Positions 28,339 to 42,319 of a stretch of DNA of 64,000 nt are shown here, in pieces (within the stretch, counting starts at the first letter, position 1; every line of letters begins with the position of its first letter). A program made the position numbers and the translations under genes. The notes below the pieces were generated by a model. The model searched no databases. It saw only the letters and a program-made list of their open reading frames with translations, and was not told where the DNA came from. The DNA comes from Rosistilla carotiformis (GTDB lineage: Bacteria; Planctomycetota; Planctomycetia; Pirellulales; Pirellulaceae): NCBI RefSeq assembly GCF_007753095.1, contig NZ_CP036348.1:5619411-5683410 (forward strand), in the 5' to 3' direction.

Positions 28339-28401
28339 ACCACATCGTTAGGCTTCGAACGACACTTCTTAAACTCCCCACCTACTTTCGAGATTTGTTT
28401 G

Positions 28402-30003
28402 ATGATCCGATTGCCGCTTGTTGGTACTACGCTATTTGTTTTGTTGGTTGTCGCAATCGGTCCCGCTCAAGCTGACGAGCCTCTTTCCCTTGCTCAATTG
28501 AAAGCAGACAGGGAGCAGGCCACTCAGCGCGAGCGGCGGATCATTTTTAATAACGACGGAAACGAACCGGTCTATCTCTGTCGCGATACGACACCCGAGG
28601 AACTGCTTCGTCACCGCACCTCTCCGTTGGTGAACACCCACGTCGATACGATTTTCTATTGCACGTGGAGCAGCGGCTTCGGCATGTTCACCCACGACAC
28701 GAAAGTGGGGAATGTCTTTAAGACAAAAGAAGGTTTGTTCTCCAAGAACTCGATCGAAAAAATGCTTGACGCGGGAACCGACCCGCTGCAAGTCATGGCC
28801 GATTTCGGCAAGAAGAATGACATCGAAATCTTCTGGTCGTTTCGCATGAACGACACGCATGACGCGGGCCTATCGGGATACGGGCCGATCATGTTGCGAG
28901 CGAACCCGTTGAAGCTCGAGCATCCCGAATGGCTGATCGGGACCCCGAAAAATCGCCCCAAGTTCGGCGGTTGGAGCGCTGTCGATTTCACTCGCCCTGA
29001 GATTCGCGATCTTGCGGTCGCGTATGTCGAAGAGGTTTGCCAGAACTACGGCATCAACGGAATCGAACTCGACTTCTTTCGACACCCAGTCTTCTTCAAA
29101 CGGGCAGCCCAATCGGGAACGCCCTGCAACGAAGAAGAACGAAATCTGATGACGGACATGATTCGTCGAATCAGAAAAGTCACGGAAATCGAAGGACAAA
29201 AGCGAGGCACCCCGATCCTGCTTTCGGTCCGCGTCCCCGACTCGGTCTCCTACTGCCGTGACAGTGGTCTCGATATCGAGAAATGGATGCAAGACGATTT
29301 GATCGACCTGATGACGGTGTCGGGATATTACCGGCTGAGCCCATGGGAGGATTCGGTCAAACTAGGGAACAAGTACAACGTTCCGGTCTACCCGTCGTTG
29401 GATGAATCCCGCGTCCGAGATCCCGAGGCTAAAAAACTGCGAATGACGGTTGAGGCCTATCGCGGCCGCGCATTGGCCGCTCGAAGCGCCGGCATGGCGG
29501 GACTCAACCTATTCAATTCGTTTGATCCCCACGCGCCCATCTGGAAAGAGCTTGGTGAGCCGGCAACACTCGCCCGGCAAGACCATGATTATTTTGCCAG
29601 CATCCGAGGCGTCGGAGCGGCCGCAGGAGGCGCCTTGCCGCATCGCAGCTACCAAAAGATCGCCACGCTCAATCCGAAAGCAGCGGTTTCGGTAGCACCC
29701 GACAAAGCGGCGACGGTCAGTTTCTACAACGGCGTGGAATATCAAAAGCTGGATTCCGCCACTCCGCCCCAAATCACACTCCGTCTTCAGTTTGACAAGG
29801 AAGCTCCTCAGAACATCCAAGTCGCGCTCAATGGAGTCGCGCTGAAGCCATCGACCGCTGCGGATGGATGGCTGGAATGCACAGTGGATCCTGGAATGCT
29901 CAAGCTGAATGAAAACCAAGTCACGGTTTCACTCGGCGACAAAGACGCGGCGGCGAAGTGGACCGACCTGCGCTGCACGGTTCGCTGGAATCAAGACAAA
30001 TAG
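28402..30003 (+). CDS. Secreted TIM-barrel glycoside-hydrolase-like protein
   Basis: 533 residues from the ATG at 28402 (a TTG one codon earlier is possible). Signal peptide to about residue 25 (AIGPAQADEP). The main part looks like a family-10-type / GHL10 TIM barrel: VNTHVDTIFYCTWSSG near the start, WSAVDFTRPEIRDLAVAYVEEV, and YGINGIELDFFRHP with acidic residues at a strand end. A C-terminal beta domain (about 430-533, ITLRLQFDKEAPQNIQVALNG) may bind carbohydrate. Substrate unknown. It sits between DUF1559 copy 3 and a sialidase-like gene, supporting glycan use. Confidence 0.7.
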   Translation: MIRLPLVGTTLFVLLVVAIGPAQADEPLSLAQLKADREQATQRERRIIFNNDGNEPVYLCRDTTPEELLRHRTSPLVNTHVDTIFYCTWSSGFGMFTHDTKVGNVFKTKEGLFSKNSIEKMLDAGTDPLQVMADFGKKNDIEIFWSFRMNDTHDAGLSGYGPIMLRANPLKLEHPEWLIGTPKNRPKFGGWSAVDFTRPEIRDLAVAYVEEVCQNYGINGIELDFFRHPVFFKRAAQSGTPCNEEERNLMTDMIRRIRKVTEIEGQKRGTPILLSVRVPDSVSYCRDSGLDIEKWMQDDLIDLMTVSGYYRLSPWEDSVKLGNKYNVPVYPSLDESRVRDPEAKKLRMTVEAYRGRALAARSAGMAGLNLFNSFDPHAPIWKELGEPATLARQDHDYFASIRGVGAAAGGALPHRSYQKIATLNPKAAVSVAPDKAATVSFYNGVEYQKLDSATPPQITLRLQFDKEAPQNIQVALNGVALKPSTAADGWLECTVDPGMLKLNENQVTVSLGDKDAAAKWTDLRCTVRWNQDK

Positions 30004-30080
30004 TCTCAACGCCGCAAAGTTGCTTAGAAGCTTGTGAATTCGGCAATCCAACAAGAACATCACCTCAGGTAATCCATCGC

Positions 30081-31190
30081 GTGAATCAACGAACGAACAC
30101 CGCTTTTGCTACATTGCTGGTCATCGCCGCCTCGATTTCTTCAGTTGTTGCCGCCGAAGCAATCGAAGACATACACATTGTTCCCAAAGCAGAGAAGCTA
30201 CGCGGATATCGCGGCATCAATGGCGACTTGATCCAGCGAAAGGATGGCTCCCTTTTGTTCTGCTACACCGAACCCGGTGAAGGCGGAGGCATTGTTTCCA
30301 AGACTTCGACCGATCAAGGAAGTACATGGAGCGAGCCGAAGGTTATCGTCGCTCAGCCACCCTCGTCGGGACCGGGAAGATACAACCATCCAAGCTTGCT
30401 GCAGCTGGACAACGGGGACCTTCTCATCTCCTACAACTACACCACTCACCCCGCCAAGCCGTATTACGCGATGACCCTTTATCGTCGCAGCGCCGACCAA
30501 GGGGAAACGTGGAGTGAGCAACTGCCGATGACGCCGTACGCGGGATACACCCTCGTGCACAACGACAAGCTGCTGTCTCTCAAGGATGGCCGCATCATCG
30601 CGGTAGCGGCGACGAAGAAATACATGCCTAGTTCCCATGACCACAATGGTTATGTCGGCTTAACCTTCTACTCCGACGACCAAGGATACAGTTGGCATCC
30701 GAGCAAAAACGACGTCGACTTGTACGACTCGAGAAAAATCGAGGTCCAAGAACCCGATGCCGTGGAATTAAAAGACGGCCGACTGCTGATGTTCGCTCGC
30801 TCATATAGCGGTTACCCGTTGAAAGCCTATTCCGAAGACCGAGGCGAAACCTGGTCAAAGGGCGAACTCATTCGTGAGTTGAAAATGCCTTACGCTGGCC
30901 TGCCTACGGTCCGCCGAATTCCATCGACCGGAGACTTGCTGTTCATTTGGATCAGCGGCAAGTCCAAGAGCGAGAGCGGCCTTCCACTGCGAAGCGTGCT
31001 GTCGACAGCGATCTCGCAAGACGAGGGCGAAACCTTCGTGCACCAACGAAACCTGGTTGACGACCCTACCAACGATCTGGGATATCAGTGCATTGAATTC
31101 CTGGAAGATGGAACCGCGTTGATCGTCTATCACAGCAACGATGGCTTGCACATGTCTCGCCTGAACGTCGATTGGTTCTACGGCAAATAG
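30081..31190 (+). CDS. Sialidase-like exo-glycosidase with Asp-box repeats
   Basis: 369 residues from the GTG at 30081, chosen because a signal peptide (ATLLVIAASISSVVAAEA) follows at once. Five Asp-box (BNR) motifs SxDxGxTW mark a six-bladed propeller: STDQGSTW, SADQGETW, SDDQGYSW, SEDRGETW and SQDEGETF. Early Arg residues (KLRGYRG) could belong to the sialidase Arg triad. Such secreted proteins remove sialic acid or act on related acidic sugars; non-enzymatic relatives exist. Last gene of the plus-strand run starting with gntR. Confidence 0.82.
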   Translation: MNQRTNTAFATLLVIAASISSVVAAEAIEDIHIVPKAEKLRGYRGINGDLIQRKDGSLLFCYTEPGEGGGIVSKTSTDQGSTWSEPKVIVAQPPSSGPGRYNHPSLLQLDNGDLLISYNYTTHPAKPYYAMTLYRRSADQGETWSEQLPMTPYAGYTLVHNDKLLSLKDGRIIAVAATKKYMPSSHDHNGYVGLTFYSDDQGYSWHPSKNDVDLYDSRKIEVQEPDAVELKDGRLLMFARSYSGYPLKAYSEDRGETWSKGELIRELKMPYAGLPTVRRIPSTGDLLFIWISGKSKSESGLPLRSVLSTAISQDEGETFVHQRNLVDDPTNDLGYQCIEFLEDGTALIVYHSNDGLHMSRLNVDWFYGK

Positions 31191-31288: not shown

Positions 31289-32767
31289 CTAAAGCTGTTG
31301 CAAGGCGACGCCTCCGGTCGCTTTAGCCAACTGGATTAGGTCGTCGTTGACCTCTTCGACGATAAACGCGTGCAGGATGATCCCGTTGAGCTCTTCTGGC
31401 TTGACGTTGATCCCATGATCGCCATCGGTCACGATGATCAGCTCGGGACGTTCGGCCTGAGTGTCGGCGACAACGGCTTCGATCCGCGTGATCCCCTCGC
31501 GAATCGCGAGGTTGATATCGGTATCATCGCCAAGGAAAAAGCTGGAGTGCAGGTTTTGCATCGCCTGGCGTGCCTGAGACACTTCGTCGACAAGCACCTG
31601 TTCGTGAACGACGGAATCGAAAAAGCTGAATCCCAAAATGGCTTCGCGCCGTAGCACAGCTCGCAAACGGTTCATCAGGATGGCGATCAGCTTGTAGATC
31701 CGTTCTCCCTGCTGCATCGATTTCGAGCGATCCAACATCGCGTAGAACAGCTGCTTTTTGTCGCTCTTCTTGATCTTCTCGCGGACCATGAAGCTTTTTG
31801 TCGCCACGCGGTAGCGAAAATATTTGGGCGACGCGACTTTCAGCGCCCACGCTGCCGGCACCATCCGCGACAGTTCGTCGAACGATTGCATCATCCGCAT
31901 CCGCGTCTGGTCACCGTCGGCCGCCGGCAACATTTTCTTTTCAAAGCGAGGCTGAAAGCCGACGTATTCGTTGGCGATCCGCGCGATCCGCACCAACGCT
32001 TCGAGCCCCGGTTCGCTGAGCATCCGCGACGCGATATCCAACCGCCGGACCGACAGCGGATGGATCTCCTTGTGCTCGGTCTCGCGACGGACGCCACCGA
32101 AACAGTCGCTCAGCAGCGACGCGATCTTATCGCGTGTCTCGAGGTTTTCGACCAATTGAATCTGGCTGATCCCACGATCCAAGGCCATCCGTTCCAGGTC
32201 GAGCTGGTCGGTCGATTGCAGCGAATCCTCGTCGGGCAGACACTCCAACAATTCGATCTCATCGGCTGTCAGCCCGCCCACTTCGCCAAGAGCCCAGTTG
32301 ACTTGCGCGGCGATCACGTCGGACGCCAGCCCGATCGCAAGGGCTTGTTTGACGGTCGAGATCAAGGCGACATTGGCGATCGCGCGATCGATGTCGGTGC
32401 GTCCCTCCAGCTGATCGAATTCGATCTCGCGCAAAGCGGATGCCAAGGCATGGTAGATCGCCGTATCACGCTGCGACCAATGAAAGATGTCGTCGAGGAA
32501 ACGCTTGATCCGCCCCATCCGCATCCGGTAGGTCAGCCCGATCCGCCGCTCGATCTCCAGCGATCCGGCCAAGCGTCCGTCGTCGACAAGATGCACGCCA
32601 TCCCAGATCGTTGGAATCGGAATGTGCTGCATTCCGATCGCGTCGAGCCGCCGAATCACCTCGGCGGTGTTGATTTGCTGACGCCGCTCGCTCTCGTCCG
32701 GATAGGTCACATGCGTGTGAAAGCGGATGAAGTTTCGATAGCGTCGCGGCAGATCAGCGGCATCCAT
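31289..32767 (-). CDS. VWA-domain protein
   Basis: 492 residues from the ATG at 32767, preceded by GAGAGG at 6 bases. No signal peptide. The N-terminal 330 residues are helical and Arg/Glu-rich (IERRIGLTYRMRMGRIKRFLDD...), unrecognised. Residues about 345-485 form a von Willebrand factor A domain: MIDAS loop MLDRSKSMQQGE (DxSxS), the Thr of DDTDIN, and VTDGDHG. Cytoplasmic VWA proteins often partner AAA ATPases, but none is adjacent. Its neighbour upstream is the redoxin/monooxygenase fusion, 36 bp away on the same strand, so they probably share a transcript. Confidence 0.78.
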   Translation of the reverse strand: MDAADLPRRYRNFIRFHTHVTYPDESERRQQINTAEVIRRLDAIGMQHIPIPTIWDGVHLVDDGRLAGSLEIERRIGLTYRMRMGRIKRFLDDIFHWSQRDTAIYHALASALREIEFDQLEGRTDIDRAIANVALISTVKQALAIGLASDVIAAQVNWALGEVGGLTADEIELLECLPDEDSLQSTDQLDLERMALDRGISQIQLVENLETRDKIASLLSDCFGGVRRETEHKEIHPLSVRRLDIASRMLSEPGLEALVRIARIANEYVGFQPRFEKKMLPAADGDQTRMRMMQSFDELSRMVPAAWALKVASPKYFRYRVATKSFMVREKIKKSDKKQLFYAMLDRSKSMQQGERIYKLIAILMNRLRAVLRREAILGFSFFDSVVHEQVLVDEVSQARQAMQNLHSSFFLGDDTDINLAIREGITRIEAVVADTQAERPELIIVTDGDHGINVKPEELNGIILHAFIVEEVNDDLIQLAKATGGVALQQL

Positions 32768-32803: not shown

Positions 32804-34831
32804 TCACGAGCCAAACCGCTTCTTGGCGGCCTGTTCGATTTCCCGCCGCGTGAGGATCGAATCGCCGTCGCGATCGAACTTACGAAATCCGTAGCGGCTG
32901 AAGGCCATCGGCGTCTCTTCGCGGGCGACCTTGCCATCGCCGTCGGTATCCATCTGCTCAAAAAAGTCGCGGACGAAGTCGTTGACTCGCTGTGTCGCTT
33001 CGTCGGCGGCGACGCTCTTCTCATGCGACTGCTTTGCTTTCGCCTGCTTATTGGCTCGGCGATCCGGCTTGTCGTCCAATGGCTGGCAGACTTCGAAAAA
33101 CGCCAGCGCCATCTCTTCCCAAGTCTGATCGCCCCAGCTGACGTATTGCGATGGATCGGGATTGACCAGATTGTCCTTGGAGTTGTCGAACCAAACGGTC
33201 CCCGTTAGTTCCTTGACCGTCGACAGATCGATCGGGTTGGCGAAGGCATAGGAGTGCTGCCAATTGAAGTCGTACGCTGGCACATCCAACAACGTCTCCT
33301 GCTGGCCCGCGATCTGCCCCATTAAACGGAACGCTTTGCCGCGCAGATGCATGTGCGGCGCAACGGCTAACAATTGCCCGGCTTTCGGCAATCCGCCCGG
33401 CTTGATTTGAACAGGATGATTGGCCGCCCGCGGTGGGATCTCGAACTCTTGATCGATCGCCGCAACGGTGAAGACTTCATTGGTAACCGTTGCCGGATCG
33501 GCCAACTTGATGCCGACCTTCGTCAGATCGTCAACCTCCGAACCGTTGGGCGTGTAGTGCATCTGGAAGACAAACTTGGAACCGGCGGGAACGCGGCGGG
33601 CCAGCCCAGGCGGGTACTCCGCGACGCGTTGGCCGGGAACGTAGGCGGTCAACCAATTGACGCCGCGTTGGCGTTGGCCATCGGGTGGGCGCACAAAGAT
33701 GATCGCGTGATGGACGACGCTGCGGTCGCCAGGGATCACCTCAGCCGCCTGGATCCACTGATCCTCGGTAAACCCACTGTCGACGACAAAATACTGGTAC
33801 TCCACCGTCCCTTCGGCCGGCACGCGATACGGCTTGTCGTTCATCGCAAAGACGAGATCGGGAGTTCCCAGTCCCCAATCGCCGCGCGGCGGCAGCGGTT
33901 CGGGAAGGTCGTTGGCATTGCCATAGGGCATCCCTTGATCGACCCAATCTCGCAAGATCTGCTTGTCCCCCGCCGACATCTGCCGGGCCCCTAAGAAGTC
34001 GCCATATTCGGGATTCGCGTGCCATGGAGGCATCCGCCCTTGATCGATCACTTCCAGCGACATATCGGCCCAGCCGACGACTTCATCGTAATCGGTCAGG
34101 GCAAACGGACCGATCTCGCCGGCGCGGTGGCATTCGACGCAGTGCTGCTGCAGCACGCGTGAGACCTGTTTGCAGAAGGTGATCGAGCCCTCGTCTGCCA
34201 ACGGTCGTGATTGCCCGATGATGCAACCGACCGCCGTAGTCCGCGGCATCGCGACAGGTCGATCGGCCAGCAGGTCGTCGATCGCTTCGCGCAATTCGCT
34301 GCGCGTGGCGACGGGACGCGAAATGCCTGGTCGATACTGATCGTCGATCCGGCCTTGGTAACGGATCTTGCCGGTCGCATCGAGGACAAAGACCTCGGGC
34401 GTTCGCGTCGCTCCCAACAGCGTCGCCGCAGCGCCGTCGTAATCCTTCGCCATCGGGAACGAAATCGCATACCGGTCGACATACTCGCGGACCTCTTGCA
34501 GCGAATCCTGGCGGTTGCTGTTGACTCCCAAGACGCGCACGCCGCGATCGCGCAGTTCGGAATCCAACGCCGACAACCGCGGACCATACAATCGGGCTAA
34601 TGGACACTCAGTCCCCAAGAAGCAGATCACATGCAGCTTGCCCGCTTCGGGATCGAGCAGCCGAAGCGACTGGTTTTCCACCGCCGACGGCAACTGCAAC
34701 GACTGAACCGATTCAGCTGCCACGGCGGACAGCCCACTGCAACCCCAAGCCAGGAGACAGACAACAACTCGCCCGAAACTCGCCCCGCGATTGCGTTGAA
34801 AGCCCCAGTGCGTCAGATCTCGAAAGTTCAT
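32804..34831 (-). CDS. Redoxin - cytochrome c - PHM-like copper monooxygenase - EF-hand fusion protein
   Basis: 675 residues, secreted (signal about 1-39, ends AVAAES). Domains in order: thioredoxin-like redoxin 55-190 with FLGTECPLARLYG (one Cys only); a c-type haem domain about 210-305 with CVECH at 231-235 and MPPWHANPEYGDF; a copper type II ascorbate-dependent monooxygenase (PHM-like) region about 325-580, in which all six PHM copper-ligand positions can be proposed (His374, His375, His425; His493, His495, Met574); and two C-terminal EF-hands, DTDGDGKVAREE (628-639) and DRDGDSILTRRE (653-664). Probably a periplasmic oxidoreductase; substrate unknown. Encoded 36 bp before the VWA gene and near a thioredoxin lipoprotein. 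Confidence 0.85.
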   Translation of the reverse strand: MNFRDLTHWGFQRNRGASFGRVVVCLLAWGCSGLSAVAAESVQSLQLPSAVENQSLRLLDPEAGKLHVICFLGTECPLARLYGPRLSALDSELRDRGVRVLGVNSNRQDSLQEVREYVDRYAISFPMAKDYDGAAATLLGATRTPEVFVLDATGKIRYQGRIDDQYRPGISRPVATRSELREAIDDLLADRPVAMPRTTAVGCIIGQSRPLADEGSITFCKQVSRVLQQHCVECHRAGEIGPFALTDYDEVVGWADMSLEVIDQGRMPPWHANPEYGDFLGARQMSAGDKQILRDWVDQGMPYGNANDLPEPLPPRGDWGLGTPDLVFAMNDKPYRVPAEGTVEYQYFVVDSGFTEDQWIQAAEVIPGDRSVVHHAIIFVRPPDGQRQRGVNWLTAYVPGQRVAEYPPGLARRVPAGSKFVFQMHYTPNGSEVDDLTKVGIKLADPATVTNEVFTVAAIDQEFEIPPRAANHPVQIKPGGLPKAGQLLAVAPHMHLRGKAFRLMGQIAGQQETLLDVPAYDFNWQHSYAFANPIDLSTVKELTGTVWFDNSKDNLVNPDPSQYVSWGDQTWEEMALAFFEVCQPLDDKPDRRANKQAKAKQSHEKSVAADEATQRVNDFVRDFFEQMDTDGDGKVAREETPMAFSRYGFRKFDRDGDSILTRREIEQAAKKRFGS

Positions 34832-34966
34832 GGCTGCCCAAATGAATAGAAATGGAAAGTGAAGAGTTTGGACTAAGCGAGCCCGTTCAACGGGCCTTCA
34901 CCGGTACCTAGCGAGTTGGCGACCGACCGGCCCACAAGCGGCACGCAACCAATACACGGCGGACGA

Positions 34967-35395
34967 TCAGAGGGTCGCGTCGCCGGAATGAGAGAAACCA
35001 GAAGCCCACTGAGAGATCTCATCCGCCGAATAATAGCCGGTCCGTTCGTCGATCTTCTTTCCATCGCGAAACATGACCATGTGCGGGATTCCCGATATTC
35101 GGTAACGCGCACTGAGTTCGGGATTGTTGTCGACGTTGATCGAAACGATCTCGACGTCGCCGGTGACGTTTGGCAATTCCTCGTCGAGCATCCGGCACGG
35201 GCCGCACCACGGGGCACCAAACTTGATTAGGGTCAGAGGCGACTTTGCGACCAATTCGTCGAACTGCTGTTCGCTGTAGTGCGGGTCATCGCTGCCCGAA
35301 CCGTCTGCCATGCGAAAGCGATCGCAACCGACGACGATCAAAGCAGCCAACGCGATCCATCCGATAGCGATTCGGGTCGAAGCGAGCATATTCAT
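34967..35395 (-). CDS. Membrane-anchored thioredoxin lipoprotein
   Basis: 142 residues, ATG at 35395. The signal ends in ALIVVGC, a relaxed lipobox with Cys24. The thioredoxin fold carries the redox site WCGPC in IKFGAPWCGPCRML and the cis-Pro in SGIPHMVMF. It would reduce disulphides or supply electrons in the periplasm. It lies 135 bp upstream of the redoxin/cytochrome/monooxygenase fusion on the same strand, so it may serve that protein; this is inference. Confidence 0.88.
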   Translation of the reverse strand: MNMLASTRIAIGWIALAALIVVGCDRFRMADGSGSDDPHYSEQQFDELVAKSPLTLIKFGAPWCGPCRMLDEELPNVTGDVEIVSINVDNNPELSARYRISGIPHMVMFRDGKKIDERTGYYSADEISQWASGFSHSGDATL

Positions 35396-35697: not shown

Positions 35698-36372
35698 ATG
35701 GGCAACAACCTTGAAAACTTTGAACAGACCGTCCAATGCATCTCCGACAGGGTTCTCACCTGCATTCGGCAGCAACAGTCCTTGCAAGCGTCGATTGCAG
35801 ATGAACCCGATAGCATTTTCATAAAGTCGGCCAACGGGCACACTCAAATAGTCAACAGTGCCTACCACCTTCGGTTTACCGCAGGGATCGATCCAGCGGG
35901 GAAACCGGGGGATTCTTATCTGCATTCGTCGATCATCGACGTGTCGCAACGCAGCGACAAGATGGTCCTGGGCGGTTGCTCGACGGTGCAATTCAACCAT
36001 GTGGGAGAAGATGCGCTGGGGCGAACGCTTCAATTCCGCACGTACAAGCGTTCCCTACAAGAAGCCGGCGACCCGCGTTATGCGATCCTTGGGATCACGC
36101 GCGTGCTGGGGATCGTCGCATCGAAGGCGCCCACCAGGTCGCACCTTTCCGACAAATGGCAGCGTTTTGAACAGTTGGACCCGACCGACCGCCAACTTGC
36201 GATCGAGATCGCCGGAGGGCGACGAACGATCGATCACGGTCGCGGCGAAGCCAACGCAATCGATTCCCGTTACAACGCGATCCTGCAAACGATGGAAGTT
36301 GAATCGCAGGTCGAACTGATCAAGCTGTTGGTGCGATTGCAGGACAACGGATTTGGCGATCTGGGGATTTGA
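35698..36372 (+). CDS. PAS-like sensor with divergent LuxR-type helix-turn-helix
   Basis: 224 residues, ATG at 35698. Residues about 30-140 look like a PAS fold (DEPDSIFIKSANGHTQIVNSAY...; GRTLQFRTYKRSL). Residues about 157-220 follow the outline of a LuxR/GerE HTH: LDPTDRQLAIEIAGGRRT for helix 1-2, DSRYNAILQTMEVESQVELIKLL for the recognition and dimer helices, but the central KEIA-type turn is altered (HGRGEANAI). No receiver domain. Convergent with pstB, separated by only 12 bp. Probably a one-component regulator; signal unknown. Confidence 0.6.
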   Translation: MGNNLENFEQTVQCISDRVLTCIRQQQSLQASIADEPDSIFIKSANGHTQIVNSAYHLRFTAGIDPAGKPGDSYLHSSIIDVSQRSDKMVLGGCSTVQFNHVGEDALGRTLQFRTYKRSLQEAGDPRYAILGITRVLGIVASKAPTRSHLSDKWQRFEQLDPTDRQLAIEIAGGRRTIDHGRGEANAIDSRYNAILQTMEVESQVELIKLLVRLQDNGFGDLGI

Positions 36373-36384
36373 TCGAATCCGACG

Positions 36385-37239
36385 CTAGCTGAACTCGCCC
36401 CGAATGTACTGCTTGGTGTACTCTTCTTGCGGATCGGCAAACATCGCTTCGGTCTTGTTGTATTCGACCAGATAGCCGGTTCGCGCACCTTCCGACGTGT
36501 CGACATACATGAACGCCGTCATGTCGGCGACGCGTTGAGCTTGTTGCAGATTGTGAGTGACCACCGCGATCGTGTACTGCTTCTTCAGTTCGGTCATCAG
36601 TTCTTCGATCCGTCGCGTCGCGATCGGATCCAAGGCCGAACAAGGTTCATCCATCAACAGCACCTCGGGTTCGGTTGCGATCGCTCGGGCGATACACAGA
36701 CGTTGCTGCTGCCCCCCGGACAACGACAATCCGCTGTTCTTCAGCTTGTCCTTCACCTCATCCCAAAGCGCCGCCCCGCGCAGCGCCTTCTCGACGCGTT
36801 CGGGCACGTCTCCTTTGACGCGGTTCAGGCGCAGGCCAAAGGCAACGTTATTGTAAATACTCATCGCAAACGGATTGGGCTGTTGAAAGACCATCCCGAT
36901 GTAGCGACGCACCGCCACGGGATCGACGCTGCGATGGTAGATGTCGCGACCGCGAAAATGGACATGCCCTTCGAAACGGAAGCCGCGCACCAAATCGTTC
37001 ATCCGATTCAGGCATCGCAGCGCGGTGCTCTTGCCGCAGCCCGATGGGCCAATAAAAGCCGTGATCTGTCCCTGCTGGACAGGAATATGACTATCGCGGA
37101 CCGCGCGAAACTTGCCGTAATAAAGATTATCGATCTTGCAATCGATAACCGTATTGGCGGGCACTCCGTTGCTCTTCCCGTTAAGCTTCTTGCCCTGCTT
37201 CGCTTGATGCGGCTTCTTATCTGGAGACGCTTGGACCAT
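36385..37239 (-). CDS. pstB: Phosphate ABC transporter ATPase
   Basis: 284 residues, ATG at 37239. PstB drives import of inorganic phosphate. Walker [11 protein letters not shown]-loop QQPNPF, ABC signature LSGGQQQR, Walker [13 protein letters not shown] and the H-loop THN are all intact. There is a 25-residue Lys-rich N-terminal extension before the ABC fold. Last gene of pstSCAB, 12 bp after pstA. No phoU follows; the next gene is convergent. Confidence 0.97.
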
Positions 37240-37251
37240 TGGAATACCTGC

Positions 37252-38163
37252 TCAGCTTGTGACTTTATTGCGTGATAGGATTTGCCCACCGATGTTGATC
37301 ACTAACACGATCATCACCAGCACGAGAGCGGCTGCCCAAGCGAGTTCAATTTGATTCTCGAAGGGAACGCCAGAGAAATTAAAGATCAGCACTGCCAAAG
37401 AAGCCGTCGGATCCATCAACGCCAATTTGCCATCTTGTACGATCCAGTAGTTGCTGTTCAGCGCGGTGAACAGCAACGGCGCGGTCTCGCCCGCGGCGCG
37501 GGCCACGGCCAACATCACGCCGGTCAGTAGCCCTGGCAACGCCGTGGGAAGGACCACTTTCCAAACAACTTGTGTCTGCGTTGCACCCATTCCGATCGCG
37601 GCTTCTTTCATCCGATGCGGAACCATCTTGATCGCTTCTTCGGCGGTCAGCATGACGATCGGCAGCATCAGGATCGAAAGCGCGATGCCGCCGGCGGGGG
37701 CCGAATAAGTGCCGGTGACCAAAACCACCGCCGCATACGCAAACACGCCCGCCAGGATTGACGGAAAACCGGTGAGCAATTTAGCGCAGAAGCGAACGGC
37801 CGAGGCGGTCTTGCTGTCCTTGCCAAATTCGGCCAGGAACAACGCGGCCAGAACACCGAAGGGAACGCTGATCACGACGGAGATGCTGACCATCAGCAAC
37901 GTCCCGACGATCGCGTTGCCAAAGCCGCCGCCACTCTCAAATGCCGATGGTGGCGTTTCGGTGAACAGGCTGAGACTGAGTCGCTTGCCACCGCGCCAGA
38001 TCAGCATGAACAACACCGAAAACAGCGGGATGCAGGCAACGACGGTGACCAGACCGGTTAGAATGCTCAACGTCGAACTGAATAGTGTTCGCGGGTGACG
38101 CAGCGAACGTTCCAGGGTTGGAAAATCGATGTCATCAAATGCATCGGTGATTTCTTGGCTCAC
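37252..38163 (-). CDS. pstA: Phosphate ABC transporter permease PstA
   Basis: 303 residues, GTG at 38163, overlapping the pstC stop (GTGA), which implies translational coupling. About six membrane helices follow a 35-residue cytoplasmic start. The EAA-type coupling motif reads EEAIKMVPHRMKEAAIGMGATQ. Forms the transmembrane channel with PstC. Confidence 0.95.
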   Translation of the reverse strand: MSQEITDAFDDIDFPTLERSLRHPRTLFSSTLSILTGLVTVVACIPLFSVLFMLIWRGGKRLSLSLFTETPPSAFESGGGFGNAIVGTLLMVSISVVISVPFGVLAALFLAEFGKDSKTASAVRFCAKLLTGFPSILAGVFAYAAVVLVTGTYSAPAGGIALSILMLPIVMLTAEEAIKMVPHRMKEAAIGMGATQTQVVWKVVLPTALPGLLTGVMLAVARAAGETAPLLFTALNSNYWIVQDGKLALMDPTASLAVLIFNFSGVPFENQIELAWAAALVLVMIVLVINIGGQILSRNKVTS

Positions 38164-39137
38164 TTGGTGGCTCCCTTCATGTGCGCCGAAGCGCGCCGCA
38201 TGATCGCCGCTCCGAAGATGTTGACCGCCAATGTGATCGCCATCAGCAGCAGCGCGGCGTACATCAGCACTTGTTCTTCCTGCTTGCCCGCTTCGGGGAA
38301 GTTATTCGCCAGCAAAGCGGCCAAGGTATTGGCCGGAGAGAACAGTGAAACCGTCAATTGATTTGAATTGCCCACCAGCATCGCGAGCGCCATGGTCTCC
38401 CCAAGGGCGCGACCAAACCCAAGCACCAACGAGCCGAAGATGCCTGTCGCCGAGGCGGGAATGATCACTCCGAAGATCGCCTCCCATCGCGTCGCTCCAA
38501 GTCCAAACGCCGCCTCTTTGAGCTTTCTAGGAACCGAACTGATCGCATCACGGGAGATCGCCGAAACGGTCGGCAGGATCATGATCGCCAGCACAAGCGA
38601 AGCGGGCAACATCCCCGGTCCGCTGAGCGATGTTTTGAAAAACGGGATCCACTCGAAATGCTCATGGATCCAGTTGGCTGCCGGACGAATCGCGGGGATC
38701 ACGACATAGATCCCCCACAGGCCATAAACCACACTGGGGATCGCGGCGAGCAGTTCGACGATGTTCTTGAAAACAACTTCCAGGTAGGTCGGCAAGAAAT
38801 CTTGCGTCAGGAAGATGGCTATCGAAACACCGAAGAAGCCCGCGATCATCAACGCCAGAAGCGAACTGTAAAGCGTGCCCCAGATTTCTGGGAGCACGCC
38901 GAATTCACCTCGATTGGCGTCCCAAGTGGTTCCCGTAATAAACGAGAAACCATATTCCTGAATTGCGGGAAAAGCTTTGCCACCTATCTCGTACAGGATG
39001 AAAACCACCAACAAGATGGTCAACCAAGAGAACATGTGCGTCATTCCGCGGAAAGCTCGATCCCACGAAATGTCCCATTTCGTGGGGGGCGAAGCGACCG
39101 ATTGAATCGACGTGTTTGGCTCGATAGACGTTGCCAT
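38160..39137 (-). CDS. pstC: Phosphate ABC transporter permease PstC
   Basis: 325 residues, ATG at 39137. Six membrane helices are apparent after a soluble N-terminal segment, with the permease motif AISRDAISSVPRKLKEAAFGLGATRW. It pairs with PstA; the two genes overlap by 4 bp. pstS lies 51 bp upstream. Confidence 0.95.
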   Translation of the reverse strand: MATSIEPNTSIQSVASPPTKWDISWDRAFRGMTHMFSWLTILLVVFILYEIGGKAFPAIQEYGFSFITGTTWDANRGEFGVLPEIWGTLYSSLLALMIAGFFGVSIAIFLTQDFLPTYLEVVFKNIVELLAAIPSVVYGLWGIYVVIPAIRPAANWIHEHFEWIPFFKTSLSGPGMLPASLVLAIMILPTVSAISRDAISSVPRKLKEAAFGLGATRWEAIFGVIIPASATGIFGSLVLGFGRALGETMALAMLVGNSNQLTVSLFSPANTLAALLANNFPEAGKQEEQVLMYAALLLMAITLAVNIFGAAIMRRASAHMKGATK

Positions 39138-39188
39138 AAATCCTCTGGTGGCGTGATAAAGCGGTGGTGGAATCCTACCGACCCGCGA

Positions 39189-40262
39189 CTACTGAATGGA
39201 ATCCAAAGCGGCGGTTACCTTTTCGACAACGTCGGCTGGCAACGGAACGTAGCCCATTTCATCGCTCACTTTTTGGCCTTCGGTCAAGCAGTACTTGACC
39301 ATCGATTTCAGCACTTCCGCCTTTTGCGGATCGTCGTACTTCTTGTAGCACAACAACCATGTGTAGCTGACGATGGGGAACGCTTGTTCGCCGGGAGGAT
39401 CGGGAAGCCAAGCACGCAAGTCGGCTGGCATTTCAACGTTCGACAATGCAGCTTGGCCACTCTCCAACGAGGGCAGCACAAAGTTGCCTGCCTTGTTTTG
39501 CAGGCTCGCCATCGCCAACTTCGTCAGCTTGGCGTAGCCGTACTCGATGTATCCGATCGCACCGGGCGTTTGCGTGATCGTGGCGGTGACGCCGTCGTTC
39601 TTGGGCGAGGCGACAAATTTGTCGCTGCTTGGCCAAACAACCGTTTTACCGGTACCAGGTCCATTGGCCCAGTCTTCGCTGATCGCGCTCAAGTGCTGGG
39701 TAAACACATAGGTGGTTCCGCTGCTGTCGGCGCGACGGACGACGGTGATGTCTTGATCGGGCAGCTTGACTCCGGGGTTCGCTTCGACGATCGCCGGGTC
39801 GGTCCAATTGGTCACCTTCCCCAAGAAGATCCCGATGTAGGCGTCACGCGATAGTTTCAGTTCGGAAACTCCGGGCAGGTTGTAAGCCAGCACGACTTCG
39901 CCAGCCGTCATCGGCAGCAGCTGTACTCCTTGGCTGACCGCAGCAATCTCTTCGTCGGACATGGCCGCATCGCTGGCGCCAAAATCAACGGTGCCATTGG
40001 TGAAATCTTTGATCCCCGCCCCGCTACCCTTCGCTTGGTAGTCGACTTTCACCCCGTCGTTGGCACGGCTGAATTCCTTGAACCAACGATCGTAAAGCGG
40101 GAAGGGAAAACTTGCCCCCGATCCGGTCAGCTTGACGCTTCCCGTTGTGGTGCTGCCGTCGCCCGATCCTGAGTCGGAATTGGTGCTGCTTGAAGAGCAT
40201 CCGGTAACCAGAAGACAAACAGCAAGGCCTGCCACAAAAACGCTAGTGTTTCGCCAACGCAC
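39189..40262 (-). CDS. pstS: Phosphate-binding lipoprotein PstS
   Basis: 357 residues, GTG at 40262 behind GGGAAAT. Lipobox LLVTGC (Cys22), then a Ser/Gly-rich linker. Substrate-binding motifs: LTGSGASFPFPLYDRWF, GSGAGIKDFTNGTVDFGASDA and RADSSGTTYVFTQHL, all typical of PstS. It delivers phosphate to PstCA at the membrane. First gene of pstSCAB; Pho-box-like sequences lie upstream, in the region shared with a divergent porin gene. Confidence 0.96.
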   Translation of the reverse strand: MRWRNTSVFVAGLAVCLLVTGCSSSSTNSDSGSGDGSTTTGSVKLTGSGASFPFPLYDRWFKEFSRANDGVKVDYQAKGSGAGIKDFTNGTVDFGASDAAMSDEEIAAVSQGVQLLPMTAGEVVLAYNLPGVSELKLSRDAYIGIFLGKVTNWTDPAIVEANPGVKLPDQDITVVRRADSSGTTYVFTQHLSAISEDWANGPGTGKTVVWPSSDKFVASPKNDGVTATITQTPGAIGYIEYGYAKLTKLAMASLQNKAGNFVLPSLESGQAALSNVEMPADLRAWLPDPPGEQAFPIVSYTWLLCYKKYDDPQKAEVLKSMVKYCLTEGQKVSDEMGYVPLPADVVEKVTAALDSIQ

Positions 40263-40377
40263 GATGATTTCCCATAAAGACGGAGGTGTAAATGCGATCT
40301 AACGCAGTCTTACGGTATGGGGCGAAACGGGGACGCTCAAGTCGCAAAACAAGGTATCCATTCATTTTCACCGGCTC

Positions 40378-40450
40378 TTCACAGTTCCTTAACAAACCCG
40401 ATCCAGCTGGGCCCGCTATCCCTTTCGATACTGTCGTAACCTTTGTAACG
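40378..40450. promoter_or_regulatory. Candidate Pho-box region between pstS and the porin gene
   Basis: Two weak matches to the PhoB pattern CTGTCAT-n4-CTGTCAT: minus-strand TTGTTAA-GGAA-CTGTGAA at 40378-40395 (toward pstS; 9 of 14) and plus-strand CTGTCGT-AACCT-TTGTAAC at 40431-40449 (toward the porin; 9 of 14 but 5-bp spacer). The 416-bp gap 40263-40678 contains no gene. Shared phosphate control fits both gene products; the sites themselves are tentative. Confidence 0.35.
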
Positions 40451-40678
40451 ATTGCAGGGAGACCGATTGTGAAGATTATTCATCTTTTGCGCACACGATC
40501 GGACAACTACCGAAGGTGGCGACGATTCAACCCATACGAACGGCATGTAGGGAATCGATGTCAGAAGATCAGATCGCCTTTGAGCACAGCCAGGATGGCT
40601 AGTTTAAAGGGGCTTCATTCTCCTTAGCCGTTCTATTTGTTGCAATTGTGTATGGAAGTGAACTGGAAAGGACTCCAG

Positions 40679-42319
40679 ATGTTCAAATCTCGAAAACGAT
40701 ATTGGCTGCTCAAGCTTTTGGGCTTGGCGTTTGTTTGCCAAAGCGGGGCGGCAATCAGCTACGCTCAATTCCCAGCGAATGAAGCCGCCTTGGACGCCTC
40801 CGCGTTTCGTCCCATCCTGTTGGGACAATCCGATAGCGGGGCCGTCGCTCCCGTCGGCTTCAATGCCCCCGCCGCGAATGCGAATTGGGCGGTTGCCGAC
40901 GACGCAATGCCAGCCGAAGGGCTGGGCGATTCGGTCAAAGTGACCGAGGGTGCGGAAGAGACGAAGGACGAACGGGACGAATTGATCGAAGACCTGACGA
41001 AGCGTCTGGACGGCATGGAAAAGTCGTGGGACGAATACCAAGGCAAGATCACCAAAGAAGCCGAAGCCAAGAAGAAGAAATCGTCCTACAAGATGGGCGG
41101 TCGTCTTCACATGGACTATTGGAACTTCATGGATAACTCTCCAGGGATCGGATACTTCGAGCACGACGACGCAGCCGAGGCGAACTACGGAACCGACCCC
41201 GAAGACCGCTTCCTGTTCCGTCGCTTGCGACTGGAAATCGAGGGGACGGTTCCCGAGAACATGGTCTTCCGGATCCAAATGGATTTCAACAATCCTTCGA
41301 CCCCGGAATACAAGGACGCCTACATCGGATGGACCAACCTTCCCTACAACCAAACGCTGTTGTTAGGCAACCAAAAGCGTCCGATGGGCTTGGACCATCT
41401 AAACAGTAGTCGCCACAACGTCTTCATGGAACGACCGTTTGCCGTCGAAGCGTTTAACGAAGACGCTCGGCGGATCGGTTTGGCAATGTACGGCCACAAC
41501 GATTCCGAATCGACCTTCTGGGCGTACGGCATCTATAACCTTGAGAACACCAGCACCACCGGCCGGTTCATCGGTGACAGCATGCAAATGGGCGGTTACG
41601 GTCGCGTCGGCGGAAGCCCTTGGTACGACGAGGTCAGTGGCGGTCGCGGCTACTGGCACGTGGCGATGTCCGGTGCGGTCGCAAAACCCGATGGCGACGC
41701 CAGCGCTGCCGATTCCAACAGCAACGAAGCGCGCTTCCGCACACGCCCCGAAGCGCGCAGCGATTCGCGCTGGCTCAACACCGGTCGAATCGTCGGTGCC
41801 GACTGGTTTGAAACGATCGGATTGGAATCGATGTTGAACATCGGATCGCTGCAGATCACCAGCGAATATCTGTTCAACTGGGTTCAACGCGACGACCAGA
41901 TCGCGGGATCGGGACCCGATACGCACTTCCACGGCGGTTACATCTTCGCATCCTACTTCCTGACTGGGGAACACATTCCTTACAAACGTAGCCACGGAAC
42001 GATCGATCGTGTCAAGCCATTCGAGAACTTCTTCTTGGTCGATCGCTTTTGTGGCAATCGCGGCGGCAAGATGGGAATGGGAGCCCTCGCGTTGGCTCTG
42101 CGATACGACTACATCGACCTCACCGACGGCGATATCCAAGGTGGTGTTGGGCATTCGGTCACCGGTGGCCTGAACTGGTACTGGACCGCATATTCGAAAC
42201 TGCAGACCAACTTGATCTACGGCGAGATCGACGACCACAGCCCCGTTGGTCCCACGGGAACCGAATACACCTCGGGTGACTACGCGATTCTTGGCATGCG
42301 ATTTATGCTCGATTTCTAA
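40679..42319 (+). CDS. Phosphate-selective porin (OprP/OprO-like)
   Basis: 546 residues from the ATG at 40679, behind GGAAAGGAC. Signal peptide to about residue 30 (GAAISYAQF). A coiled coil over about 90-125 (DERDELIEDLTKRLDGMEK) probably trimerises or spans the periplasm. The rest is a beta barrel of the OprO/OprP family: YKMGGRLHMDYW, FRRLRLEIEGT, FRIQMDF, and a C-terminal aromatic end (GMRFMLDF), consistent with outer-membrane assembly. Divergent from pstSCAB, which supports phosphate or polyphosphate uptake and suggests that the pst system and this porin are expressed together. Confidence 0.88.
   Translation: MFKSRKRYWLLKLLGLAFVCQSGAAISYAQFPANEAALDASAFRPILLGQSDSGAVAPVGFNAPAANANWAVADDAMPAEGLGDSVKVTEGAEETKDERDELIEDLTKRLDGMEKSWDEYQGKITKEAEAKKKKSSYKMGGRLHMDYWNFMDNSPGIGYFEHDDAAEANYGTDPEDRFLFRRLRLEIEGTVPENMVFRIQMDFNNPSTPEYKDAYIGWTNLPYNQTLLLGNQKRPMGLDHLNSSRHNVFMERPFAVEAFNEDARRIGLAMYGHNDSESTFWAYGIYNLENTSTTGRFIGDSMQMGGYGRVGGSPWYDEVSGGRGYWHVAMSGAVAKPDGDASAADSNSNEARFRTRPEARSDSRWLNTGRIVGADWFETIGLESMLNIGSLQITSEYLFNWVQRDDQIAGSGPDTHFHGGYIFASYFLTGEHIPYKRSHGTIDRVKPFENFFLVDRFCGNRGGKMGMGALALALRYDYIDLTDGDIQGGVGHSVTGGLNWYWTAYSKLQTNLIYGEIDDHSPVGPTGTEYTSGDYAILGMRFMLDF

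Follow-up and report, generated by a model that had tools for sequence, protein, structure and literature searches.

PHM, which makes amidated hormones, and DBH, which makes noradrenaline, are textbook animal enzymes. Both take electrons singly from ascorbate; these enter one at a time at CuH, and both this entry and the long-range transfer between the coppers are still debated. DBH uses ascorbate together with a DOMON domain, whereas the protein described here carries, before its PHM/DBH-like copper domain, a redoxin and a c-type haem whose covalent attachment is predicted. Similarly, the PRX-like AhpC/TSA proteins (SMc02350 of Sinorhizobium, 3u5r; Thermus, 2cvb; Geobacillus, 2ywi) stand alone, whereas here a redoxin that has their fold (Z 22-23) and both their cysteines (TECP..., ...GCII) is the first domain of a haem–copper chain.

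The DNA analysed, called the window below, is a stretch of 64,000 nucleotides from the planctomycete Rosistilla carotiformis, the genome of which comprises 7.44 Mb in a single contig. The span 32804-35395 of the window holds two genes of the minus strand: the fusion gene and a gene for a thioredoxin with a lipobox, which lies 135 nt upstream of the fusion. The first-pass annotation had read the former as a redox fusion of redoxin, haem, copper and EF-hand parts, and all four were found in one chain of 675 residues:

32804..34831, minus strand: fusion protein of 675 residues (redoxin, cytochrome c, PHM-like copper monooxygenase and EF-hands), ATG start, predicted to be secreted
34712..34831, minus strand: signal peptide region, residues 1-40, a hydrophobic stretch followed by a cleavage-like site (AVAA-ES)
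34214..34714, minus strand: PRX-like redoxin, residues 40-206, with Cys76 (TECPLA) and Cys203 (GCII); Pfam AhpC-TSA, 1.3e-14
33917..34189, minus strand: predicted c-type haem domain, residues 215-305, with C231-V-E-C234-H235 and GRM267PPW
33071..33880, minus strand: PHM/DBH-like dicopper domain, residues 318-587, with six ligand positions identified by profile and structure
32837..32974, minus strand: EF-hand pair, residues 620-665, loops 628-639 and 653-664; Pfam EF-hand_6, 1e-7

The signal-peptide-like start, in which residues 18-32 were modelled by AlphaFold2 as a low-confidence helix, suggests that the fusion is a secreted, periplasmic protein. The AlphaFold2 model of the whole fusion had a mean pLDDT of 85 and a pTM of 0.71, with the relative placement of the domains uncertain. 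In model comparisons, the closest structures to the redoxin domain were 2cvb and 3u5r (Z 22.7-22.8, 166-169 residues aligned, rmsd 2.0-2.1), and the thioredoxin fold and the conserved cysteine of the peroxidatic type are both present. The haem domain fell below the Pfam threshold (Cytochrome_CBB3, 0.0029); its CxxCH motif and Met267, a candidate distal ligand, mark it as a putative c-type cytochrome with predicted haem attachment, and cytochrome c assembly proteins are encoded in the window's genome. Both EF-hands proposed by the first-pass annotation have canonical loops, DTDGDGKVAREE and DRDGDSILTRRE, with Asp, Asp, Asp and Glu at positions 1, 3, 5 and 12. Two such loops occur in 102 of the 142 family proteins, most close relatives included; the window's subclade and many of its neighbours have EF-hands, which the most distant group lacks.

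The copper domain of the window protein scored 12.7 bits against PF03712, below the Pfam cut-off of 23, and the copper assignment therefore required testing. A paralogue in the same genome scored 27-31 bits, above this cut-off, and 25 of 34 family members matched PF03712 at E<=1 (best 1.4e-6). When a profile of the 34 family copper domains was compared with all PDB sequences, DBH was the top match (E 0.0037), and H374/H375, H425 and H493/H495 fell on DBH H262/H263, H333 and H412/H414 in what we take to be the DBH residue numbering (offset by 39 from the PDB chain). The search of the PDB with the sequence of the copper region found DBH, though not PHM, and when distant members were added to broaden the profile, neither was recovered from the PDB sequences. 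Structure prediction, which had been suggested as a check, recovered the PHM/DBH fold for the copper domain, modelled alone with AlphaFold2 at a mean pLDDT of 92. Foldseek matched the model to PHM with an E of 1e-13; the whole model aligned with PHM over 245 residues (VIA Z 20.8, rmsd 2.9), and the copper domain alone gave a Z of 21.1 to PHM (5wja) and 20.8 to DBH, the next fold being PNGase F at 8.5. Overall, the PHM/DBH matches lay at Z ~20-21 over 239-249 residues, with an rmsd of 2.5-3.5. As the structural alignments ended with model residue 586 on PHM 326 and model residue 585 on DBH 498, we equate M574 with PHM M314 and DBH M487. The candidate CuH ligands of the window protein are H374, H375 and H425, and the candidate CuM ligands are H493, H495 and M574; the HH/H and HxH/Met set claimed at first pass is complete, with six positions in register with DBH/PHM. 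A viral structure library yielded only weak double-jelly-roll capsid matches to the copper-domain model, as expected, because the fold is shared; the relation between PHM and capsid folds has been discussed (PMC8812541).

Judging from the models, the copper domain very probably has the PHM/DBH double jelly-roll fold, a statement that concerns this part of the protein alone, and by modelled fold and ligands the fusion belongs to the copper type II monooxygenase superfamily. The likeness to rat PHM (1phm/1opm/3mib) extends over the whole domain (Z 20-21) and to all six ligand positions, whereas identity is ~17% and the Arg and Asn that bind the peptide carboxylate are missing. Contrary to PHM, the copper domain is bacterial, is joined to haem and redoxin, and has no conserved disulfides, containing 0-3 Cys. 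DBH (4zel; PF03712, PF01082) shares HH, H and HxH in register at a Z of 20.8, and many family members match PF03712. The fusion thus appears to differ from PHM/DBH in the module through which electrons enter and, as its binding-site residues suggest, in its substrate.

The redox residues are conserved throughout the family. C76, C203, C231, C234, H235 and M267, as well as H374, H375, H425, H493, H495 and M574, were retained by all 139 relatives wherever the position was present, gaps being confined to truncated or redoxin-less members. The same residues were found in 20 of 20 distant paralogues, loci fetched by coordinates and picked by score, not by motif, which were mostly the weakest same-family matches (33-39% identity for nearly all). 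The conservation of H493/H495 is partly built in for the 80 loci that the contig pattern scan supplied as its best, because PHMH-RG served as its pattern; the loci from the same-family search, the phylum-wide search and the 20 extra loci are free of this bias. Since the residues are kept in the 139 relatives and the 20 distant paralogues, a chance origin of the motifs is excluded. Ligand loss among orthologues, named beforehand as grounds for refutation, was found in none of these sequences. Gln423 and Gln525, close to the copper ligands, are also strictly conserved.

The fusion was present in 67 of 80 same-family genomes, many of which hold several paralogues (up to eight matches), and a phylum-wide sample of 294 genomes included 122 with the copper domain. 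PF03712 had zero matches in 14 control genomes, and a plasmid search gave no match to the fusion. The survey of domain order in Planctomycetes, likewise proposed at first pass, showed that redoxin–haem–copper is the rule across relatives. Two phylum members have a shorter form, which possibly is ancestral or reduced:

L135:1453-2715: haem and copper domains, without redoxin (none nearby) or EF-hands
L138:1489-2697: haem and copper domains, without redoxin (none nearby) or EF-hands

As both proteins keep haem and copper without redoxin, haem–copper is the minimal unit, and this makes haem-to-copper the better supported half of an electron path through the chain.

Clustering of the genes that neighbour 80 named fusion loci revealed one recurrent neighbour, a ~780-residue RND exporter encoded directly downstream of the fusion and in the same orientation, with a median gap of 21 nt, and no recurring biosynthetic genes. 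The exporter matches Pfam MMPL (1e-29 to 1e-38), and its best NCBIfam subfamily is HAE3, with scores that stay under the curated cut-offs of all the subfamilies named there. Of 44 exporters, 41 have GxxxDD, the acidic motif of RND proteins. In a tree of 139 fusions, one subclade of 97 has full support; it includes the window protein, whose sister is exporter-linked. The exporter is directly downstream in 80 of the 91 decidable loci of this subclade (11 lack it there, and 6 loci are undecidable), as opposed to 0 of 34 decidable loci outside it. Exporter orthologues of the kind that pairs with the fusion throughout the phylum are listed below; the one kept by the window's genome lies 2.9 Mb from the fusion, the pair being unlinked in the genus:

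L036:5568-7889: exporter orthologue
L068:8264-10615: exporter orthologue
L155:7080-9392 (= G000:C1:2743079-2745388): exporter orthologue of the window's genome

Since the window protein nests in the subclade next to an exporter-linked protein, its genus must have lost the adjacency, and this move of the exporter made the pairing invisible to the first-pass annotation. Of the 80 same-family genomes searched, 31 bear the exporter, and the fusion is present in every one of these; six (G000, G006, G072, G028, G055 and G038) keep both though unlinked. Three genomes with a subclade fusion fall below the exporter cut-off, two of them having next to the fusion an exporter gene that a contig end cuts, and the remaining 46 genomes have no exporter (Fisher p 4e-19, relatedness ignored). 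By linkage and co-occurrence, the exporter is a conserved partner of the window's subclade; it says nothing of the paralogues outside, as most of those are not linked to it. The partner gene matches the class of the HAE3/HpnN/MMPL exporters (TIGR00921, TIGR03480; AmeD of Castellaniella, PMC6394551), though it is paired with a gene for a putative copper enzyme and not with hopanoid or monoterpene genes. Because HAE3 pumps carry hydrophobic substrates into the periplasm (PMC6394551), the pairing points to a lipid or terpenoid-like molecule as the substrate.

A second fusion in the window's genome (L156 / L002, G000:C1:5809231-5811030), 46-49% identical to the first, belongs to a different subclade and is without exporter linkage; the next ORF downstream of it resembles an LptF/LptG permease. 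In a distant relative from genome G059 (L163:3726-6500), the fusion itself has two N-terminal EF-hand stretches and is followed by two more genes with one EF-hand stretch each.

On balance, we favour the reading that the fusion is a periplasmic copper monooxygenase of PHM/DBH fold with a built-in haem donor, acting on a hydrophobic substrate that the exporter handles; such an enzyme would probably be ascorbate-independent. By analogy with the biochemistry of PHM and DBH, CuM would bind O2, abstract H and hydroxylate a C–H bond, with CuH providing the second electron. A haem c tethered to the copper domain would be a natural one-electron donor and could take over from ascorbate the supply of single electrons to CuH. 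Possible roles of the redoxin are to feed the haem, to keep the copper reduced or to clear peroxide from uncoupled turnover, and the EF-hands may stabilise or anchor the protein by binding calcium. The substrate would be a hydrophobic small molecule or lipid, passed to or taken from the periplasm by the RND exporter.

A different source of electrons is conceivable, in which a periplasmic thioredoxin drives the monooxygenase through redoxin, haem and copper in turn and a VWA protein aids maturation. This idea was put forward at first pass and concerns the genes on either side of the fusion, an arrangement seen in three species of the window's genus:

34967..35395, minus strand: lipoprotein thioredoxin (WCGPC), 142 aa, adjacent to the fusion in the window's genus alone
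31289..32767, minus strand: VWA-domain protein, 492 aa, adjacent to the fusion in that genus alone; with the ATG at 32767 as start codon, its gene begins 36 nt downstream

Besides this arrangement, the two conserved redoxin cysteines of nearly all members are in favour of a thiol route. However, the adjacency is genus-specific, haem–copper proteins without redoxin occur, and transfer from redoxin to haem has no direct support; thiol potentials are usually low, but thiols give two electrons whereas haem accepts one, which we count against such a route. We thus regard it as unlikely. Of the 80 same-family genomes, just 7 had a VWA orthologue, compared with 67 for the fusion, and in the four outside the genus this orthologue was distant from the fusion or on another contig; the VWA protein was accordingly rejected as a maturation partner. 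Of the first-pass claim about the thioredoxin, the upstream lipobox gene stands, whereas the role of a dedicated donor was not upheld, since the gene is beside the fusion only in this genus. Gene order thus gives no ground for counting either protein as part of the fusion module.

Between the thioredoxin gene and PstB lies a PAS-type sensor-like ORF with a LuxR-like C-terminus (35698-36372, plus strand), and 36385-42319 holds phosphate uptake genes on the minus strand (PstB, PstA, PstC and PstS-like, named from sequence appearance) and a Porin_O_P gene (40637-42319, plus strand), the one member of that group run against Pfam. On the other side, 28399-31190 (plus strand) encodes a glycoside-hydrolase-like protein and then a BNR/sialidase-like protein (Pfam BNR_2, 2e-26).

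An equally improbable alternative to the monooxygenase that we favour is that the copper domain is no oxygenase but serves as a redox sensor, in copper storage or in peroxide handling, electrons passing from copper to haem and the redoxin removing peroxide. The peroxiredoxin-like character of the redoxin domain would fit this, as would the lack of recurring biosynthetic neighbours and the absence of the PHM substrate-binding residues. Counted by offset from the ligands in 139 sequences, the equivalents of PHM R240, N316 and Y318, which we take to be the peptide-carboxylate site in this numbering, are S/A/T/M at 491, I/V/L at 576 and F/Y at 578. Nevertheless, both complete copper sites, the CuM Met included, and Gln423 and Gln525 are strictly kept, and such conservation is difficult to account for unless the domain carries out dioxygen chemistry. 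That the fusion is a bacterial peptidylglycine hydroxylase amidating exported peptides is highly improbable and was rejected as regards substrate binding, for although PHM is its closest solved fold, the peptide-binding residues are not conserved (the Arg, which in PHM precedes the first CuM His by two residues, is replaced in all relatives, the Asn is absent, and the Tyr is only partly kept), and the partner exports hydrophobes, not peptides.

A literature search on bacterial PHM/Cu2_monoox fusions, bacterial PF03712 and planctomycete PHM returned nothing on this family; the component families are known, and the combination of redoxin, haem and copper and the pairing with an exporter were not found described in the literature searched. 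Tentatively, the enzyme and its HAE3-type exporter may form a two-gene system, in which a self-contained, ascorbate-independent oxygenase oxidises an envelope lipid or hydrophobe that crosses the planctomycete periplasm. A phylum-wide bacterial family with the PHM/DBH ligand set and a haem in the same chain offers a genetically simple system, in which the fused haem would let electron delivery to CuH be tracked by haem spectroscopy. The exporter pairing is a first handle on the class of substrate, and makes the question of what is oxidised testable in a genetically tractable planctomycete.
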